Of a stretch of DNA of 64,000 bases, positions 34,433 through 47,805 are shown piece after piece; the stretch's first letter is position 1, and every line of letters begins with the position of its first letter. This DNA is from Nitrospira sp. (lineage in GTDB: Bacteria; Nitrospirota; Nitrospiria; Nitrospirales; Nitrospiraceae): assembly GCA_035968315.1 (NCBI GenBank), contig JAVYIN010000002.1:62001-126000 (forward strand), read 5' to 3'. The notes below the pieces were generated by a model. That model saw nothing but the letters and a program-made list of their open reading frames with translations. It was not told the DNA's origin and made no database searches. Position numbers and translations under genes: made by a program.

Positions 34433-35077
34433 ATGGATCAGGACAATCGGCTCACAAAAACCAAAGAGCAGTGGGCACAGGCGCGGCGCGGTGGCGAAGA
34501 GCGCGAGGTCTTTTACGAAGGCGATGACCGGCTGCCGCCGGGCCAGCATCTGGTCGAAACCTTTCCGGTCCTGGATCTTGGCTTCAAACCGGATATCCCC
34601 CTGGCTGAATGGAAGCTGACCATCGGCGGGTTTGTGACCAGCCCGGTCACATGGACATGGGACGACTTCCTCGCCCAGCCGCAGTTCAAGGACCGGTCGG
34701 ATTTTCATTGCGTCACCTCCTGGAGCCGCTATGACAACGACTGGGAAGGAGTGAGCTTCAAACACATCATGTCCGTCGTCAAGCCGCTCTCCCTGGCCAA
34801 ATTCGTCCTGTTCAAATCCTACGACGACTACACCACCAACTTGCCGCTCGACGCCTGCGACGATACCGACGTCTTGCTTTCCTATAAATGGAACGGCAAA
34901 CCGCTGACAAAAGAACACGGCGGACCGGTGCGGGTCATCGTGCCCAAGCGCTATGCCTGGAAGGGCGCGAAGTGGGTGAAGGAGATCACGTTTTCAGATA
35001 AAGACGAAAAAGGCTTCTGGGAAGTCCGTGGCTATTCGAACACCGCCCTGCCCTGGAAGAACGACCGCTACGGGTGA
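34433..35077 (+). CDS. Sulfite oxidase-like molybdopterin-dependent oxidoreductase
   Basis: A 214-residue protein made of one molybdopterin-binding domain. AGGAGG precedes the ATG at 34433. The likely molybdenum ligand is the Cys in FHCVTSWSRYDNDWEGV. Other family motifs are WKLTIGGFV at the start and HGGPVRVIVPKRYAWKGAKWVKEI near the end. There is no signal peptide, Tat motif or haem domain, unlike periplasmic MsrP or sulfite dehydrogenases, so a cytoplasmic role is likely. The substrate is unknown. The stop codon overlaps a GTG start of the cellulose synthase gene (GTGA), which hints at translational coupling. Confidence 0.85.
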   Translation: MDQDNRLTKTKEQWAQARRGGEEREVFYEGDDRLPPGQHLVETFPVLDLGFKPDIPLAEWKLTIGGFVTSPVTWTWDDFLAQPQFKDRSDFHCVTSWSRYDNDWEGVSFKHIMSVVKPLSLAKFVLFKSYDDYTTNLPLDACDDTDVLLSYKWNGKPLTKEHGGPVRVIVPKRYAWKGAKWVKEITFSDKDEKGFWEVRGYSNTALPWKNDRYG

Positions 35078-38000
35078 GGCGGCCACAGGGCCGCTCCCTG
35101 CGACAGATGGTCGCCCTGCTCTCTCTATTCACGAACCCCCTGATTCAACGATTCATGCACCACCTTGCCAAACTTGTATCACTCGCCTTGGTTCTCCTCG
35201 TCTGCTGCGCCGGACTCCCCAGTCGCGCTACCGCGACGGCCGCCTCGCAATCGAACGACGACGCGATCCGGCAACTCGACGACCTCTCCGCCCTCTGGAG
35301 CTTCTACAAACGGACCTATATCCAGAATGGCCGGGTCGTCAGCCTGGATGAACAGGGCATCACCACCTCGGAGGGCCAAGGCTACGCGCTGCTCCGCGCC
35401 GTCTGGTCGAACGACCGGACCACCTTCGAGGCGGTCTGGGACTGGACCAAGCAGCACCTCCAAGTCCGCGACGACAAATTGTTTGCCTGGAAATGGAAAG
35501 GAACGGTGCTCGACAGGAACTCGGCCACCGACGCGGATACCGACATCGCCCTTGCCCTGATCCTGGCCGCGCGGCGGTTCGACCACCCGGCCTTTGAACA
35601 GGATGCGCTGGCCATCCTCGATTCGATCTGGAATCTGGAACTGGTCCATATCGGCACCCACAGCTATGTCACCGCCGGCAATTGGGCGCGCCATGAGCCG
35701 GTTCCAACAATTCACGTGGCCTACCTGGCCCCCTATGCCTACGAGATCTTTGCTTCCATCGATCCGCGCCATCCCTGGGCCCAAGCCATCGCCACCAGCT
35801 ATGGCCTGCTGCACTGGCTCTACGATGAGGAAGGCCTGCCAGTCCCTCCCGAACTTGTCTACCTGAACCGGCAGACCGACCGGCTGACCGTCACCCATCC
35901 CGTGTCCGGAGCTACGTCTTCGTTCAGCTATGATGCGTTCCCCATCTTTTGGCGTGTGGCGCTGGATGCCGCCTGGTTCGGACGAGCGGAAGGCCCCCTG
36001 CGGGGCAAGATGCTGGAATTTTTCGCACGCGAATGGAAGACGCGCGGGCTCTTCGCCGACCACTATTCACTCAAAGGCTCGCCCCTGTCATCGAGCGAGG
36101 GACTCCCGCTCTACGCCACCATCCACACGCTGGCCGTTCAGGAGCAGCACGACCTTGCCCGCCTGTTGCGCGCCAAGAAACTCGCCCCGCTCGAAGCCGG
36201 CATTCTGGCAGGGAAGCGACTCCCGTACTATTTCCACAACTGGCTCTGGTTTGGCCAAGCCGTGACGCTGTCGCAAGCCCGTCACTACGATGAGTTCCTG
36301 GGATTCTTGCGCCCCTTCAATGTCGCCGGATTCTCGGCCCACTTCCCCTGGGAACTGTTCGCCGTTACCGTCATCCTCTATCTGCTCGCTCGGTGGCATC
36401 CAGTCATCAAGCTCGCCTTTCTGCTCTGCGGCTTCAGCCTCTGTCTCCGCTACCTCCACTGGCGGCTCTTCCATACACTAAACGTCCTAGAAACCGGCGG
36501 GCTCTTTATCAGCCTCTCCCTCTGGGCCGCCGAGCTCTATGCCTTCTCCACCGTCGTCCTGCTGTTCATCCAGGTCGGAACCGGATGGAGACACAAGCCG
36601 GCTCGCCCCCCTGAGCTCTCACAGGGCTTTGCGCCAACCGTCGATATTTTCATCCCCATCTATTCCGAGTCCTGCGAGATTCTGGAGAAGACGCTGATCG
36701 GCGCCGTGGCAATGAAATACGGCTACAAACAGATCTACGTCCTGGACGACAGCCATCGGGACGAGGTTGCCCAGCTCGCAGGACGATTCGGAGCCACCTA
36801 CATCAAAGGCCCCAAGAAGCATGCGAAAGCCGGCAACTTAAACCATGCCTTGACCAAGACCGACGGCGAACTCATCGTGGTCTTCGACACGGACCATATT
36901 CCCGTGACGACGTTTCTGGCGGAAACCGTGCCATTTTTCGCCGATCCCAAGATGGGTTTCGTCCAAACGCCGCACCACTTCTACAACCAGGATATCTTTC
37001 AACGGGCGCTCGGAGCGGGCCCCCGCATCCCCAACGAGCAGGATCTGTTCAACCACGCGATCCAGGGTGGCCGCCAGCGCTGGCACGGCTCGTTTTTCGT
37101 CGGCAGCGGGGCCGTCTTTCGGCGCGTAGCCATTACCGAACTGAACGGCTTCAACCTGATGAGCATCACAGAAGACATTCACACCAGCCAGCATCTCCAT
37201 GCCAAAGGCTGGAAGTCCGCCTTCGTGGACAAGGACCTGGCGGTCGGGCTGACGGCGGAAAATCTGGCGTCCTATATCGTCCAGCGGCGGCGCTGGATGC
37301 TGGGCTGCCTCCAGATATTCTTCAAAGACAATCCGCTCCTCTGCCGGGGTCTCTCGCTTCGCCACCGGATCGGGTACTTTGCCTCGCTCTATTACTTCTT
37401 TTTTCCGATCGCGCGCGTGATCTTCTGGATCACGCCTCTCTACTTCCTGCTGTTCCATCTCCATCCGATTTTTGCCGACGTCTCGATCCTCGTGGCCTAT
37501 CTGCTGCCCTTCATGATCGTGCTTCCGATGATGTCGGCCACGCTGCTCCCAGGCTGGCCCAGGCTCATGTGGTCGTCACTGTATGAAGGAGCAGTCAGTT
37601 TTCCACTCTTCCGGTCGATGTTCGACCTCTTGCTCCCCAAAAACTTGGGGTTCAAAGTCACCCCCAAGGGCCTGCTCTCGGAGCAGCGCTCGTTCGACTG
37701 GCGCTCGTCCGCCAGCCTGGCCATCGCCATCGCGATCACCCTCGCCGCTATCGGCAAAGGCCTGTGGGAGTTTTGGTACTTCGGCATTGAACAGGACGCG
37801 TACTTTTTCAATATCAGCTGGGCCTCGGTCAATCTGCTGACCCTGCTGGTCGGGCTGTTGATGGCCTGGGAGAAACCGCAGCGCCGCATTGAGGAGCGCA
37901 TTCTCAAGTCTGTTCCCTTTGAACTCCGCGCCAATGAGCGCTGCCTGCAAGGCACGGCACAGGATATGAGCCTGACCGGGCTCTCATGGAACCAGGCCCC

Positions 38001-38550
38001 ATCCGACCCGCTCCCGCCAACCATGACCATCACATTGCTCGACAAAATTCCCTTCACCTGCCAGGTCCGGGTGGTCTATCATGACCGCTTGCCAGGGCAC
38101 GGCATCCGCTGCGGCTTGACGTTTCTCAGCCTCTCGGAAGAACAGCGCCGACACCTGCTGCTGAATCTCTATGCCGATCCTGGCACCTGGAAAGATGCGC
38201 ATACGCACCGCCTGCGCAGCAGTGCCATGATGGCATGTCACTTGCTTTTAGGTTTATTCCGGCACTTTCGGCCATTACGCCTCAGCCGGCGGCAGAGTCC
38301 GAGACAATGGAGATGTCAGATCATCCAGATCCAGGTTGGAAATATACGGCACCGCGCAGTCCTCAGAGATCAATCCGCCCAGGGCCTTGGTCTCATGACC
38401 TTCGCCCCCAATAGGCCCGGATCCACCCCCTGGCTCATCCCGAACGAGAAGGGACAGCTGACCGCCTATCGCCCGATCTCACGCACCATGATCTTGGGCC
38501 TGGTGCCGCGGGTGGGATTGCAGGCTGTCCCTTCGCCATCGACCGAGTAG
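35074..38550 (+). CDS. GH8 endoglucanase-cellulose synthase-PilZ fusion protein
   Basis: About 1158 residues. A signal or anchor segment (LVSLALVLLVCCAGLPSRA) precedes a GH8 cellulase domain (about 60-430) with TSEGQGYALL (acid Glu near 100) and DADTD (near 153). Then comes a BcsA-like GT2 synthase among several membrane helices, with LDDS (near 558), FDTDH (near 605), TED (near 700) and QRRRW (near 737). A PilZ domain follows with RRIEER and DMSLTGLSW, fitting c-di-GMP control. The last 80 residues (RRQSPR, then DQSAQGLGL) resemble a second PilZ domain. It should make and trim beta-1,4-glucan at the inner membrane. The GTG start overlaps the previous gene; ATGs at 35107 and 35155 are alternatives. 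No bcsB is present nearby. Confidence 0.88.
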   Translation: MRRPQGRSLRQMVALLSLFTNPLIQRFMHHLAKLVSLALVLLVCCAGLPSRATATAASQSNDDAIRQLDDLSALWSFYKRTYIQNGRVVSLDEQGITTSEGQGYALLRAVWSNDRTTFEAVWDWTKQHLQVRDDKLFAWKWKGTVLDRNSATDADTDIALALILAARRFDHPAFEQDALAILDSIWNLELVHIGTHSYVTAGNWARHEPVPTIHVAYLAPYAYEIFASIDPRHPWAQAIATSYGLLHWLYDEEGLPVPPELVYLNRQTDRLTVTHPVSGATSSFSYDAFPIFWRVALDAAWFGRAEGPLRGKMLEFFAREWKTRGLFADHYSLKGSPLSSSEGLPLYATIHTLAVQEQHDLARLLRAKKLAPLEAGILAGKRLPYYFHNWLWFGQAVTLSQARHYDEFLGFLRPFNVAGFSAHFPWELFAVTVILYLLARWHPVIKLAFLLCGFSLCLRYLHWRLFHTLNVLETGGLFISLSLWAAELYAFSTVVLLFIQVGTGWRHKPARPPELSQGFAPTVDIFIPIYSESCEILEKTLIGAVAMKYGYKQIYVLDDSHRDEVAQLAGRFGATYIKGPKKHAKAGNLNHALTKTDGELIVVFDTDHIPVTTFLAETVPFFADPKMGFVQTPHHFYNQDIFQRALGAGPRIPNEQDLFNHAIQGGRQRWHGSFFVGSGAVFRRVAITELNGFNLMSITEDIHTSQHLHAKGWKSAFVDKDLAVGLTAENLASYIVQRRRWMLGCLQIFFKDNPLLCRGLSLRHRIGYFASLYYFFFPIARVIFWITPLYFLLFHLHPIFADVSILVAYLLPFMIVLPMMSATLLPGWPRLMWSSLYEGAVSFPLFRSMFDLLLPKNLGFKVTPKGLLSEQRSFDWRSSASLAIAIAITLAAIGKGLWEFWYFGIEQDAYFFNISWASVNLLTLLVGLLMAWEKPQRRIEERILKSVPFELRANERCLQGTAQDMSLTGLSWNQAPSDPLPPTMTITLLDKIPFTCQVRVVYHDRLPGHGIRCGLTFLSLSEEQRRHLLLNLYADPGTWKDAHTHRLRSSAMMACHLLLGLFRHFRPLRLSRRQSPRQWRCQIIQIQVGNIRHRAVLRDQSAQGLGLMTFAPNRPGSTPWLIPNEKGQLTAYRPISRTMILGLVPRVGLQAVPSPSTE

Positions 38551-38586: not shown

Positions 38587-40176
38587 ATGTCGTTACGGTC
38601 CCTTGCCTTGCTCAGTCTCATGCTGGTGTGCGTCGCCGCGTTCGACCAGCGCGCCGCGGCGGAAGACTTTACGGAATCCTGGTACCTGTCCCGCGGCCGG
38701 TCCAACATGGAGATCGACAACTATAAGGCGGCGATCGAAGCGTTCGAGAAAGTGGTGGAGCGCGACCCGGACCATCGGGAAGCGTTGCGCAGCTTGGGAA
38801 TCGCCTACGAACGGCAGGGGCTCAAAGACAAATCCATCGAGACCTTCGACCGGTATCTGGCGAAATACGACGACGATCCCGAGATCGCCTTCAAACAGGC
38901 CCAGGCGCTGGAATGGTCGCGCTATGCCTCGTATCGCGAAAAAGATCTGCTGAAGTACTACCGCATGGGGCTCAAGCGCAAAGACGACCCGGCCATGCGC
39001 TTGAAGTACGCCGCGCATCTCGCCGGCCGCAAAGAGACCGCGCAGGAAGCCATCGCTCAGTATGACAGAGTGCTCGCGTCGCAACCCCGCAATGCGCAAG
39101 CCCATCAGGGTCTGGCGAAGGCCTATGCCTGGCTGGGGCAGAACGACCAGGCGCTCTACCATGCCAATCTGGGCCGGCAGGCAGCGAAGCGCGAACCGGG
39201 CGATATGACCGCCTTGCGCCACGACATGCTCAAGGGCCGCGAACCGTCGGTCGAGGGCGTGCTCTCCGTGCTGGCCCAGCCGGAAAAACCCTTTGAACTG
39301 TATGGGATGCGGCTCGGCTCGCGGGGCAAGATGGACCTCAGCCCCTTCACCACCACGACACTGGAAGCCGGCGCCGAGCGTTTCTGGAATTCAAAAGAGA
39401 ATCGCGCCGGCGGATATCTCTCCTTCGCCAATCAGCTGCGCATCAATCCGGCCAACCGCTTCGACCTGCTCCTCGAATACCATGATGCCCCGCGCGGCGA
39501 CGGTATGGCCTACAAGTTTGAATATGCCTATGAGGGGGAGTCGGTCTCGATCCGCCCCGGTGTGAAACGCGAGTTCCGCTACGATTCGTTTGCCGCCCTC
39601 ATCGGATCGCGCAGCTCCGGACAGCTGGTGGGCCTGGCGCGCTCGACACAGTTTTACACCGACGTGATCTTCGACCTGGGATCGACCCACATCGACGTCA
39701 CCCCCTTCATCGGCTGGGTGACCGCTGAATCCCTGAGCGCCAATAGCCAAGTCGGTCTCACAGTGAAGACCTCGACGCCGCTGTGGGAGACCGGCAACTG
39801 GAACCTCTCCGGTGAATACCTCTTCTATCTCACCCACTATGGAGAGAATCAAAGCGGCTTTACGCCCAGCGCAGTCGAACCGCGCGGCGGCGCCTATTTC
39901 AGTCCGCAAGTCTTTGTGAACCAGATTCCCCGACTGGCCGCCACCTACACCTTCGACGAGAAGCAAGACATCACCTTCGCCGCAGGCCCCGCCCTGCAAT
40001 ACATCGATGAGGCCACGCAAGCCTCCGCCTTCCGCGTCGGCGGAGACGCCCACGTCGCCTACACCACGCGCCTCTCAAAACCATGGCTCTTGAAGGTCAT
40101 GGGCGACTACACGCAGATCGCGAATATCTATACGCGCATCCAGTGCAATGCCTTATTGGTCTACACGTTCTATTAA
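38587..40176 (+). CDS. TPR / outer-membrane beta-barrel protein, probable polysaccharide exporter
   Basis: A 529-residue protein with a signal peptide ending near RAAAED. Four or five TPR units follow over residues 30-220 (NYKAAIEAFEKVVERDPDHREAL; AYERQGLKDKSIETFDRYL in part). The C-terminal 300 residues are beta-barrel-like with a final strand CNALLVYTFY. TPR plus barrel is the plan of BcsC, PgaA and AlgK/AlgE exporters, and the gene lies 36 bp after the cellulose synthase fusion. It most likely guides the glucan across the periplasm and outer membrane. It is shorter than BcsC because it has fewer TPRs. AAAGG precedes the ATG. Confidence 0.82.
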   Translation: MSLRSLALLSLMLVCVAAFDQRAAAEDFTESWYLSRGRSNMEIDNYKAAIEAFEKVVERDPDHREALRSLGIAYERQGLKDKSIETFDRYLAKYDDDPEIAFKQAQALEWSRYASYREKDLLKYYRMGLKRKDDPAMRLKYAAHLAGRKETAQEAIAQYDRVLASQPRNAQAHQGLAKAYAWLGQNDQALYHANLGRQAAKREPGDMTALRHDMLKGREPSVEGVLSVLAQPEKPFELYGMRLGSRGKMDLSPFTTTTLEAGAERFWNSKENRAGGYLSFANQLRINPANRFDLLLEYHDAPRGDGMAYKFEYAYEGESVSIRPGVKREFRYDSFAALIGSRSSGQLVGLARSTQFYTDVIFDLGSTHIDVTPFIGWVTAESLSANSQVGLTVKTSTPLWETGNWNLSGEYLFYLTHYGENQSGFTPSAVEPRGGAYFSPQVFVNQIPRLAATYTFDEKQDITFAAGPALQYIDEATQASAFRVGGDAHVAYTTRLSKPWLLKVMGDYTQIANIYTRIQCNALLVYTFY

Positions 40177-44112: not shown

Positions 44113-47100
44113 CTACAACGCATCGAGAATTCGATGTGACCACAATTCTGCTAGTGGGCCAAGATTACCATCGTCGGCAGCTTGCAACGCATCCAAATAC
44201 TGACGACGTGTGGTGGATTCCAGCGGAGCGGTTTCGACGTGAGGCAAGCAGATCTTATAGAGGAGCGCCGCGAGCAGGACGCGGCCAATTCGGCCATTGA
44301 AGTCCTTGAAGGGGTGAATCCACTGGAAGCGCCAATCCGCCCAGGCCAGGAGCGCCGCGCAGCCGCCAAGCGTTCCGTCCGGTTCATGGCGCAAGCGTTC
44401 AGCCAGATCATCGCAGAACTGCCGCATATGGATCGGGACCTCGTAGTATGGCGGAGGCGTGTGTCCGCCGACCTGCACATCCACATCACGGAATCGTCCG
44501 GCCCAATCGGGAAACAAATGCCCGGCGAGCCGTTTATGGCGTGCGCAGAGCCATTCCGAATTGATGACGATCTGATCGGGCTTGACCTGAAGAATCTCGT
44601 CGTAGATGCCGACGAGTGGCACAGCGAGGCGTTCGGAAAGTTCTGAATAAGAGAGGCGGCCCTCCGCTGTGTCGAACTGGCGAGTAGAGCCTAGCTCGCT
44701 TTGGCCTTCGGGATTTCCGTGAGCGCCTTGAGACGATCCGTACTGACCGGCTGGTTCTCGAACGCCATGGACTGGCTCACCCGCTCCAGCAACACCTTCC
44801 GGTGCGCCGCCGCTACCTTCGCCGGGGTATTGTGCTGGCTGCGCCACTGTTGCAGGCGCACCTCGGCTTGCACCAGGTCGATCGGCTGATTCGGCTTCTG
44901 ATTCATGACGATCATTCTCCTTCACTTTGGATGAGGATGCAACCGAGGCCGACTCAACGATCTTGATCTCCTCTTCCGTCAAACCATAGAGGTCATAGAC
45001 CAGCCGATCGATCTCTTGATCGGTCGCGTCGATCTGGCGTTGCAGACGGTCTTTGTCCGCAGGCGTCTTGGCCTCAAAGCCGCGCTCTTTAAGAGCGAGC
45101 ATGCGTTCGACCAGCACTCCCATCTGATCATGCTTAACCTTGTCTAATTTGTCGGAATAGTTAACTGCACGTATAGGCAATTGTTTGAGATACGTTCCTT
45201 TAATTTTAGGAAAGGTATGGCGCTGGTCATAGAAGCGATCCAACCAAAAAGTACGCATCAGCTTTGAATTCAAAATGCCTAGCACATATCGAACGCTTGG
45301 CCATTTTTCACGCAGATTTACCATGAATATGGTGTTCAGGCAGTGCCACCCTTCGACATCGATAGCAAAATCCGGATAACGTCCGATCTGACGGGTGAGA
45401 AGTTTATTCTTTGCGCCATGTTTACTTGCATCCCAGCATCCTCCCGATCTGGCGATCTCATCATTGAGGCATGCCAGATTCCCCCATTTTAGTAAGTACC
45501 GATTGATATCACGTCCCGAGTAGCATGGACGGTGGGTAGACGGCACTTTGCTGCCACTAGAAACCTCTATGACATCTTTTATAAATTTCTTTCGATCTCG
45601 CAATTGCTTCCCGAAGTTCACATCAGCAATATCGCCTAACCCACAGGATCTCGCAGCGATTCTCTTCCAAAGCTTCGCTAAAGCAGACTGGCCTGTTCCG
45701 GAGTAGAGAACGTGAGCATCTTCCAGCGCCACTGCTGGCGAGACAGTTGTCTGACTAGTTTGAATCAATTGTTGTCCTTCAAGCCTGGCGTGAGCGACTC
45801 GGAAATCCTGCATAGCCCGCTTACCAGGACTGAATACAAATATCGCGTTATCCACGCTAACTCCATCAAATACACCTCCGTCGATAATAACAACATGGTG
45901 AACGCTTGATCTCTCTAATATTACGCGCCGAAGCTTATCGAGGTGATTGTTCGTTAGGAAGTTGGCAGGTGTAATCATTGAAAACCGTCCACCAGTCCGA
46001 CAAAGATTTATTCTTTGCTCAATAAACAGATGGTAAGTGTCAATCTTGAAGGAGGCGGCCTTGAAGTTGGAGCGGAAATAGTCAAGCTGTCTGTTATCAC
46101 GAAATTGATCCTGAAGGAGTACATAGGGCGGATTGCCGATGACGGCATCGAAGCCCCCCGCTTTCATGATTGCCGGGAACTCGGCCTTCCAGTCGAAGAG
46201 ATTCACCCGCCGCATCTCCTCATCGTCCGGCATGAGCTGGCCCGTAAAGTAATCCGGCCCGATGAGGCTGTTGCCGCACTTAATGTTCTGCCCCAGGTCG
46301 GGCAACGCCCGCTCATGGACAAAGGAAAGCTGCCGCTTGAGCGTCTCGTCGCTTTCTCCTTCCAATACTTTGAGCAAGAGGCTGAGCTTGGTCACTTCCA
46401 CGGCCTGGCTGTCGATGTCCACGCCGTGGATATTGTTCAGCAGAATGCGCTTCTTTTCTTGCGTGGTCAGCCGCCATTCTCCGCTGGCCGCCTGAAAGAG
46501 TTCCTTGCGGTGCTTCTCCGGGCCGTCCTTCACGTACCAGTCTCGATGGTAGGCCAGGAGGTAGCGATAGGCCCCGAGCAAAAACGAGCCCGATCCGCAG
46601 GCCGGATCGAGAATCGTGAGCTTCGCAATCTGCTTGGGCGTCTTGCCCTCGCACAGCACGCCGACCGTCTGCTTGACGATGTATTCGACGATGTAGGCCG
46701 GCGTGTAATAGACGCCGCCGGCTTTCTTCACTTCCGGCTTCTCTTCGATCCTGGCCTGATGGCCGGAGGTGAGCCGGATGACCTTTCCCAGGAATTGCTC
46801 ATAGACCTGGCCGAGAATTTCCGTGGGCAGCACAGAAAACTCGTAGGGACTCTGGGGGTAGTAGAGCCGCCCCAGAATCTCTTTGAGGACCTTGTCGTCA
46901 ATCTTCAGGCTGGGGGTCAAATCGTCGGGCGATTCGGCGCGGTCTTTCTCCTTGTGAAAATGAAAAAGACCGGAGTTGTACCGGTCGTCGGCCTGTTCGT
47001 AGAGGTAGCGCAACCGGCCATAGATGTTCTGCCCGTTCAGCAGGGCTTGCAGCTGGCCGTAGGGCTCGACGCCACGATCTTCGCAAATGCGGAGGAAGAT

Positions 47101-47805
47101 GAGCCGGTCGATGGTGCGCTGGACGGAAAAGTTCAGCTCGTGGACGGTGAGCGCCGGATTGCGGAGCGCGAGATTCTTGGCGAGCGTGTCCCGCCAGGTT
47201 TCGATCTCCTTTAGAAACTCCGCATCGACGGTGGCCGTGCCCCGCTTACGATCGGTCACCGCATACTTGTCGAAGGAGCCTTTGAGCACCGCCTCCTTGG
47301 TGAAGATGGACGCGATCTCGTCCCATCGGGCCAAGTAGTCACGATACGTCAGATAGAGAATGCGGCCTGTGCTGGATTTATCAGACGCGTTCGGGCGGGT
47401 CCGGCAATCGTAAACGGCGAACTCTTCGAAGTCGGTCAGAATCGACAGCGGCAGCTTAGCCGACCAGGCGTAGCGGCGGAGCTGATAGGCCGGGGGAATC
47501 TCGTCTTTGACGTTGACGGCCGGTTTCTTGGCTTCCAGGAAAAACTTGCGCGCGCCGCCAACCCGAAAACAATAGTCGGGCGCTTTAGTGTTGCCGCCGA
47601 TCTTGATGGCATCTTCATGGATGACATCCTTGTAGGCCTCGGCATGGCCCTGCCTGTTGGCGACGTCCCAGCCGAGCGCTTCGAAAAAGGGATCGAGAAA
47701 CTCCCGACGCACTTGGGTTTCGTTGTAACCCTGGCTCTTGTAGGCATCCCGATTCCGCTCGAACCGGTCGATGAGGATGGCAACGATGGGAGGCGCCTGG
47801 CTCAC
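44113..47805 (-). CDS. Type IIG restriction-modification enzyme read through into a Fic domain
   Basis: A 1230-residue ORF. Residues 1-170 form a PD-(D/E)xK nuclease (PDYCF with D77, FFLEAKK with E91 and K93). The N6-adenine methyltransferase has DPACGSGSF near 400 and NPPYV near 557. A target-recognition region follows to about 950; its DNA (roughly 45100-46000) is visibly AT-richer. After KIVESAS comes a Gly/Pro/Ala-rich stretch (about 965-1038) that looks like out-of-frame translation. The end is a Fic domain: flap HTPPPYYEVP and active motif HPFKDFNGRIGR near 1163. The methyltransferase/nuclease should modify or cut DNA; Fic enzymes AMPylate target proteins. No ATG for a separate Fic gene is visible, only a GTG at the VPLVG segment. 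The ORF may encode one fusion or two proteins. Confidence 0.85.
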   Translation of the reverse strand: MSQAPPIVAILIDRFERNRDAYKSQGYNETQVRREFLDPFFEALGWDVANRQGHAEAYKDVIHEDAIKIGGNTKAPDYCFRVGGARKFFLEAKKPAVNVKDEIPPAYQLRRYAWSAKLPLSILTDFEEFAVYDCRTRPNASDKSSTGRILYLTYRDYLARWDEIASIFTKEAVLKGSFDKYAVTDRKRGTATVDAEFLKEIETWRDTLAKNLALRNPALTVHELNFSVQRTIDRLIFLRICEDRGVEPYGQLQALLNGQNIYGRLRYLYEQADDRYNSGLFHFHKEKDRAESPDDLTPSLKIDDKVLKEILGRLYYPQSPYEFSVLPTEILGQVYEQFLGKVIRLTSGHQARIEEKPEVKKAGGVYYTPAYIVEYIVKQTVGVLCEGKTPKQIAKLTILDPACGSGSFLLGAYRYLLAYHRDWYVKDGPEKHRKELFQAASGEWRLTTQEKKRILLNNIHGVDIDSQAVEVTKLSLLLKVLEGESDETLKRQLSFVHERALPDLGQNIKCGNSLIGPDYFTGQLMPDDEEMRRVNLFDWKAEFPAIMKAGGFDAVIGNPPYVLLQDQFRDNRQLDYFRSNFKAASFKIDTYHLFIEQRINLCRTGGRFSMITPANFLTNNHLDKLRRVILERSSVHHVVIIDGGVFDGVSVDNAIFVFSPGKRAMQDFRVAHARLEGQQLIQTSQTTVSPAVALEDAHVLYSGTGQSALAKLWKRIAARSCGLGDIADVNFGKQLRDRKKFIKDVIEVSSGSKVPSTHRPCYSGRDINRYLLKWGNLACLNDEIARSGGCWDASKHGAKNKLLTRQIGRYPDFAIDVEGWHCLNTIFMVNLREKWPSVRYVLGILNSKLMRTFWLDRFYDQRHTFPKIKGTYLKQLPIRAVNYSDKLDKVKHDQMGVLVERMLALKERGFEAKTPADKDRLQRQIDATDQEIDRLVYDLYGLTEEEIKIVESASVASSSKVKENDRHESEAESADRPGASRGAPATVAQPAQYPGEGSGGAPEGVAGAGEPVHGVREPAGQYGSSQGAHGNPEGQSELGSTRQFDTAEGRLSYSELSERLAVPLVGIYDEILQVKPDQIVINSEWLCARHKRLAGHLFPDWAGRFRDVDVQVGGHTPPPYYEVPIHMRQFCDDLAERLRHEPDGTLGGCAALLAWADWRFQWIHPFKDFNGRIGRVLLAALLYKICLPHVETAPLESTTRRQYLDALQAADDGNLGPLAELWSHRILDAL
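44691..44906 (-). CDS. Candidate class I Fic antitoxin nested out of frame in the RM-Fic ORF
   Basis: A 71-residue protein in a different frame of the 1230-codon ORF, exactly covering the odd linker. Evidence that it is real: AAGGAG lies 10 bases before the ATG at 44906 and the sequence has natural composition (VRLQQWRSQHNTPAKVAAAH and KVLLERVSQS). Residues 46-51 read SMAFEN, which fits [S/T]xxxE[G/N], the helix motif by which class I antitoxins such as VbhA put a Glu into the Fic ATP site. The Fic domain begins right after its stop codon, the usual antitoxin-toxin order. The antitoxin role is inference. Confidence 0.7.
   Translation of the reverse strand: MNQKPNQPIDLVQAEVRLQQWRSQHNTPAKVAAAHRKVLLERVSQSMAFENQPVSTDRLKALTEIPKAKAS

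Follow-up and report, generated by a model that had tools for sequence, protein, structure and literature searches.

A synthase and a hydrolase in one gene

The window analysed here, a stretch of 64,000 nucleotides from Nitrospira sp. (assembly GCA_035968315.1, contig JAVYIN010000002.1, positions 62,001 to 126,000 of the forward strand), carries a gene that joins a GH8 hydrolase to a BcsA-type synthase with two predicted PilZ domains, followed immediately by a second gene whose product resembles the outer-membrane exporter BcsC (Table 1). The source is a nitrite-oxidising bacterium of the Nitrospira lineage. The open reading frame (ORF) of the fusion is single and uninterrupted, running on the forward strand from a GTG codon at 35074 to a stop codon at 38550 (1158 codons counted from that GTG). 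An earlier note on this DNA had placed the start at the GTG, which overlaps the stop codon of the upstream molybdopterin oxidoreductase gene; because the orthologues L001, L006, L016 and L021 begin at the residue encoded by ATG 35155, and with a signal peptide, the true start is probably this ATG (1131 aa). The N-terminus that it would generate, MHHLAKLVSLALVLLVCCAGLPSRATATA, looks like a typical signal peptide, as judged by hydropathy and by the reading of A-x-A sites.

Table 1. Predicted features of the fusion gene and of its downstream neighbour, in window positions (TM, transmembrane; GT, glycosyltransferase; TPR, tetratricopeptide repeat)
Feature	Position	Strand	Length	Basis or remarks
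bcsZA-like fusion gene	35155..38550	+	1131 aa	signal peptide - GH8 - 3 TM - GT2 (BcsA) - 4 TM - PilZ1 - PilZ2; probable start
Predicted signal peptide	35155..35241	+		hydrophobic core, A-x-A sites near residues 25-29; hydropathy, sequence reading, same pattern in orthologues
GH8 hydrolase domain	35275..36288	+		Pfam PF01270; structural matches; aligned catalytic residues
Three TM helices ahead of GT	36331..36570 (36331-36387, 36400-36456, 36514-36570)	+		hydropathy
GT2 catalytic domain	36637..37302	+		D,D,D,QxxRW signature as LDDSH, FDTDH, ITED, QRRRW
Four TM helices behind GT	37396..37869	+		gating-loop motif FKVTPKG at 37651-37671
PilZ1	37879..38160	+		RRIEER (37882), DMSLTG (37963); PF07238, E 8.7e-11
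PilZ2	38290..38526	+		RQSPR (38290), DQSAQG (38368); six-strand barrel in model
BcsC-like exporter	38587..40176	+	529 aa	signal-like N-terminus, ~5 TPRs, 16-strand beta-barrel; 36 bp downstream of fusion

On the ORF numbered from 35074, Pfam recognises GH8 at residues 74-342 (E 8.5e-33), GT2 at 522-743 (7e-22) and PilZ at 936-1029 (8.7e-11), each above its gathering cut-off, which bears out the earlier note in its reading of a hydrolase joined N-terminally to the synthase within one ORF. Alignment to CelA and CMCax places the catalytic acid of the GH8 domain in the Glu of SEGQGY (35368-35385) and the base in the Asp of FSYDAF (35923-35940), and the predicted domain gives VIA-align Z scores of 30.8-30.9 to BcsZ (3qxq/7f81) and of 33.9 to CelA (1cem). 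It reaches 99.4 bits on the BcsZ equivalog NF008305, under the cut-off of 299, and, unlike the separate, soluble periplasmic BcsZ, it is part of a membrane polypeptide. A genome-wide search found no second GH8 anywhere in the same genome, the fusion holding the sole copy. In the synthase portion, the D,D,D,QxxRW signature and the FxVTxK gating loop are intact by alignment to BcsA structures. The autoinhibitory salt link of BcsA is formed by the E371-R580 pair, according to a passage of PMC10374906, and the equivalents of both residues are kept in the fusion, as the E of GLTAEN and the R of RRIEER, in an alignment read by eye.

The C-terminal PilZ domain with RxxxR and D/NxSxxG that is expected of BcsA is present as PilZ1, and both motifs recur in the tail. 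The earlier note had spoken of one or two such domains; its first (RRIEER, DMSLTG) stands, while the count is corrected to two. Pfam finds nothing in the tail region of the window fusion, nor in that of fusions L014 and L019; nevertheless, RxxxR and [D/N]xSxxG occur there in every complete fusion aligned, the region is modelled by AlphaFold2 (AF2) as a six-strand barrel with a predicted local distance difference test score (pLDDT) of ~80, and the tail corresponds, in a profile comparison (hhalign E 1.9e-5, Prob 78), to a second PilZ that Pfam does detect in paralogues. Motifs, model and paralogues together indicate that the fusion has two PilZ domains, of which the tail is PilZ2.

The downstream gene is modelled (AF2, mean pLDDT 82) with approximately five TPRs and 16 strands, and its three best PDB matches are all E. 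coli BcsC (9b8a, 9b8h, 6tzk); the predicted product has the combination of periplasmic TPRs and a 16-strand outer-membrane barrel by which BcsC is known, with a Pfam BCSC_C score of 15.1 bits that lies under the gathering score of 23.5. Wherever a locus includes sufficient flanking sequence, whether in Nitrospira, Myxococcota or Fibrobacterota, the gene next after the fusion encodes a BcsC-like partner, and a search among plasmids gave no match to the partner protein. In one Myxococcota locus (L126:6917-11902, minus strand) the GH8-TM-GT-PilZ chain runs in frame into the BcsC-like partner as one ORF of 1661 aa, in which PilZ2 is missing and a signal-peptide-like stretch lies at the internal junction with the TPR-barrel part.

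Distribution and integrity of the fusion

Within the genus, 12 of the 79 genomes carry the fusion, the present one included. A sample of the phylum added seven more, six from the same family and one from another family of the class, for a total of 19 sampled Nitrospirota genomes, among them the named isolate Nitrospira moscoviensis NSP M-1 (L009). Outside the phylum, the fusion occurs in 2 of 167 Fibrobacterota genomes, in 12 of 195 from Myxococcota (one copy being a fragment, and two lying on contigs that are 5.01 and 5.03 Mb long), and in one metagenome-assembled genome (MAG) of KSB1, whose phylum assignment is open to doubt, since it shares its sample with a Myxococcaceae MAG (L018). All GH8 fusions form one clade with a support of 100/100; the fusion therefore arose a single time, and it was probably transferred between phyla.

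The earlier note had warned that a sequencing error could have joined two ORFs, and a few MAG copies are indeed broken by frameshifts or internal loss (L002:7887-11384, L017:7872-10959, L058:1330-4827), be it through assembly error or decay. An artefactual join of bcsZ and bcsA, or a degenerate gene, is nonetheless so improbable as to be negligible: the same fusion is found in dozens of independent genomes, single-contig chromosomes among them, a conservation that rules out a frameshift join; the genome in question has no separate bcsZ or bcsB; and purifying selection acts across every domain, the ratio of nonsynonymous to synonymous substitution rates (dN/dS) being ~0.12 for GH8, ~0.06 for the TM-GT portion and 0.3-0.45 for PilZ2, in all cases well below 1.

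Membrane topology and the lack of BcsB

In the window fusion, the hydropathy profile has a single segment at the N-terminus, three TM helices that separate GH8 from the GT domain, and four after the latter. Because a signal peptide and an odd number of helices precede a GT domain that is cytosolic, the GH8 domain and the N-terminus are predicted to be periplasmic, which agrees with the earlier note's supposition that the hydrolase lies outside. Three helices ahead of the GT domain are also typical of the other GH8 fusions, whereas canonical BcsA has an N-terminus that faces inward, four such helices, and BcsB as a partner, none of which applies to the fusion. The same division is seen among Nitrospirota, where full-length BcsA accompanied by BcsB has four helices before the GT domain, while the fusion and BcsB-less paralogues have approximately three. 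On these counts, the fusion lacks TM1 of canonical BcsA, the helix that contacts BcsB, and its three helices are equivalent to TM2-4.

In E. coli, the BcsB anchor is seated in a groove of BcsA TM1-3, as described in a section of PMC11470070, and the Romboutsia synthase RiGT2, which has neither TM1 nor bcsB, is judged by its authors to be BcsB-independent, as is plant CesA (PMC10374906, in part). We infer that the loss of TM1 removed the seat of BcsB and turned the N-terminus outward, and that periplasmic domains could be added there as a consequence. Other N-terminal modules do occupy the position of GH8, namely a GH5 cellulase (L092, L093) and a TPR domain (L096, L097), and these fall in separate clades of the tree. 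The GH5 genes, from Fibrobacterota (L092:985-4125, minus strand; L093:1-3414, plus strand), place the cellulase N-terminal to a BcsA-like GT2 in which no PilZ was detected, while those with TPRs, from the Nitrospira class (L096:1039-4080, plus strand; L097:985-3990, minus strand), carry the repeats N-terminal to a BcsA-like synthase that has two PilZ stretches. It is also of note that the fusion N-termini of two Myxococcota loci (L125, L127) bear a lipobox-like signal, LLAC, which suggests that the N-terminus may be lipidated in these cases.

The earlier note had seen no bcsB at the locus, and the observation extends to the entire genome, in which PF03170 and a Nitrospirota BcsB query each gave 0 matches while controls gave their expected ones; the bcsB gene that marks bcs operons of types I-III is, in other words, absent. 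A separate bcsB-bcsZ operon elsewhere, which the earlier note had named as a reason to doubt its reading, is excluded by the single GH8 and the lack of BcsB. No HlyD-like partner, as in the type IV bcs systems of cyanobacteria, was recognised beside the fusion, a genome-wide HlyD search not having been made. BcsB was likewise not found above cut-off in 17 further Nitrospiraceae genomes with the fusion (one, G183, has a match below cut-off), nor in 12 Myxococcota genomes with it; two Fibrobacterota fusion genomes do have BcsB, which adjoins a BcsA that is separate from the fusion and lies on a different contig. Relatives with a non-fused BcsA, by contrast, have BcsB next to it, as in Myxococcota G612 and G613, or in the Nitrospirota genome G156 (L078), where BcsA, BcsB, BcsZ and BcsC are adjacent.

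The genome of the window also encodes two additional BcsA-like proteins with two PilZ domains each (L076, 9608-11923, minus strand; L077, 8869-11223, plus strand). The idea that these are the real synthases and the fusion is redundant was examined; reading of the neighbouring ORFs recognised no bcsB, bcsZ or bcsC near either of them, and both are orphans without recognised bcs partners.

A putative BcsB-independent glucan secretion system

The fusion gene and its partner (35155-38550 and 38587-40176) probably constitute a compact system for the synthesis and secretion of a beta-1,4-glucan of the cellulose type, gated by cyclic di-GMP (c-di-GMP) and independent of BcsB. Beyond what sequence and prediction show, namely the domain order, the motifs, the parity of the helices, the partner gene, the absence of BcsB and of a second GH8 from the genome, and the conservation of the arrangement, this reading includes the activity, the product, the response to c-di-GMP, the cutting of the nascent chain and independence from any BcsB substitute, all of which we infer. 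In such a machine, the signal peptide would export the N-terminal GH8 to the periplasm, and the next three TM helices, the counterparts of TM2-4 in BcsA, would bring the chain back to the cytosol, where GT2 would polymerise UDP-glucose. Binding of c-di-GMP to PilZ1, and possibly to PilZ2 as well, would open the gating loop (FxVTxKG) as it does in BcsA of Rhodobacter, and the glucan would exit via a channel of seven helices. At the side of this channel, the tethered GH8 would cut chains that stall or escape into the periplasm. The BcsC-like partner, with its short TPR solenoid and its barrel of 16 strands, would then take the glucan across the outer membrane. Trimming may in this manner be coupled to synthesis. 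In E. coli, secretion requires hydrolysis by BcsZ but not the BcsZ subunit itself, for which an unrelated cellulase can substitute (PMC11379886, in part), and by analogy this fits a clearing role for the fused GH8.

Several points weigh against this proposal. It is built throughout from sequence and prediction; the TM counts derive from hydropathy, and at the chosen threshold the number of peaks is lower or higher in some fusions; the second motif of PilZ1 is degenerate in N. moscoviensis (EISPAG); and a non-homologous substitute for BcsB could be encoded elsewhere. In the GT/TM region, the AF2 model of the complete fusion (23 sequences) is weak, with a mean pLDDT of 59, so that it does not fix where GH8 lies with respect to the channel exit, and VIA structural matches for this model are confined to the GH8 domain. 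Finally, the window fusion scores 507.9 bits on TIGR03030, the BcsA equivalog, whose cut-off is 699.1, and its orthologues score 504-520, as opposed to 829.6 for the BcsB-partnered Nitrospirota BcsA of G156. Because the fusions fall well below the cellulose-synthase cut-off, the product is uncertain, and it may not be cellulose.

These scores agree with a variant in which the machine operates as described and the polymer is a mixed-linkage (1,3;1,4)-beta-glucan, or another beta-glucan, with GH8 acting as a lichenase-like enzyme. Mixed-linkage glucan is a fair rival to cellulose as the product, in that the nearest published GT2 that lacks TM1 and BcsB and bears PilZ, Romboutsia RiGT2, makes this polymer (PMC10374906, in part), and the structures that best match the fold of the GH8 domain include a GH8 beta-1,3-1,4-glucanase (5xd0). 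The D,D,D,QxxRW signature and FxVTxKG loop are common to all of these synthases and do not discriminate; however, the presence of PilZ is a trait of BcsA rather than of BgsA or CrdS (from a portion of PMC6821405), and the partner is BcsC-like. On the whole, we regard the variant as rather unlikely.

The fused GH8 could also replace BcsB structurally and, besides cutting, dock at the channel exit as an activating and guiding partner, which would render the synthase self-sufficient. Fusion and BcsB absence do coincide in Nitrospiraceae and Myxococcota, and the GH5 or TPR domains of other TM1-less BcsA types occupy the same N-terminal position. Many TM1-less paralogues, however, have neither a periplasmic domain nor BcsB, so the loss of BcsB needs no GH8 substitute, and the model is too weak to put GH8 on the exit; a structural role of this kind is conceivable but somewhat doubtful. 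Similarly tentative is the broader idea of a self-sufficient, single-chain cellulose synthase-hydrolase with a periplasmic GH8 in the place of BcsB at the channel exit, which would belong to a wider, undescribed class of BcsA with an outward N-terminus and no TM1, onto which GH8, GH5 and TPR domains were repeatedly grafted. The preferred proposal of a BcsB-independent, two-gene secretion system adds to the earlier note the BcsC-like neighbour and the systematic link with the loss of BcsB and of BcsA TM1.

Elsewhere in the window, a low-GC stretch holds a single ORF of 1230 aa (44113-47805, minus strand) in which a Type IIG restriction-modification enzyme (HSDR_N, Eco57I, TaqI_C) is followed by a C-terminal Fic domain, an odd combination.

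Significance and comparison with known systems

It has long been unclear why bacteria that make cellulose retain a cellulase among the genes of the synthesis operon; a passage of a 2024 paper still calls the biological function of BcsZ unknown, with only its hydrolysis being needed (PMC11379886). The fusion makes the disputed role of the cutter directly testable, in a system of two genes. Tethering of a cutter to the synthase happened once with GH8 and, in a different synthase lineage, with GH5, which speaks for a benefit of cutting at the channel exit. The link between the fusion, the loss of BcsB and the loss of TM1 outlines a minimal bacterial glucan secretion system, some members of which lie on complete chromosomes, and yields a clear prediction regarding how BcsB became dispensable. 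Within the portion of the openly licensed literature consulted, no description was found of a BcsZ-BcsA fusion, of cellulose in Nitrospira, or of a Fibrobacter GH5-GT2 protein; an earlier mention of the BcsZ-BcsA fusion may exist outside that literature, and the architecture may already be on record in domain databases.

The canonical bcsA-bcsB-bcsZ-bcsC set (E. coli; Nitrospirota G156/L078) shares with the window a BcsA-type GT2 with PilZ, a GH8, and a TPR protein with a 16-strand outer-membrane barrel. In the window, however, GH8 and BcsA form one chain, BcsB is absent, PilZ is present twice, three TM helices precede the GT domain instead of four, and the partner has approximately five TPRs as compared to the 19 of E. 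coli BcsC (PMC11379886, in part). BcsAB and BcsZC fusions, described in sections of PMC7112194 and PMC9693552, likewise unite neighbouring bcs subunits in one polypeptide, but they join A to B or Z to C, whereas the present one joins Z to A. Romboutsia RiGT2, as presented in part of PMC10374906, has the same seven TM helices, the same lack of TM1 and bcsB, and a PilZ with RxxxR and D/NxSxxG; it differs in being Gram-positive, in having no fused hydrolase and no barrel partner, and in producing mixed-linkage glucan. The cyanobacterial XcsA/XcsB/XcsC and clostridial CcsZAB systems (excerpts of PMC12430437 and PMC7710045) combine a PilZ-bearing synthase with an endoglucanase in the absence of a homologous BcsB, but their endoglucanase is separate, and they employ an HlyD-like or CBM11-like partner. 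Lastly, the N-terminal fusion of PgaB to the GT2 of poly-N-acetylglucosamine (PNAG) synthesis, mentioned in PMC7112194 (in part), also places a periplasmic polymer-modifying domain on an inner-membrane synthase, with a deacetylase and PNAG taking the place of the cellulase and glucan predicted here.

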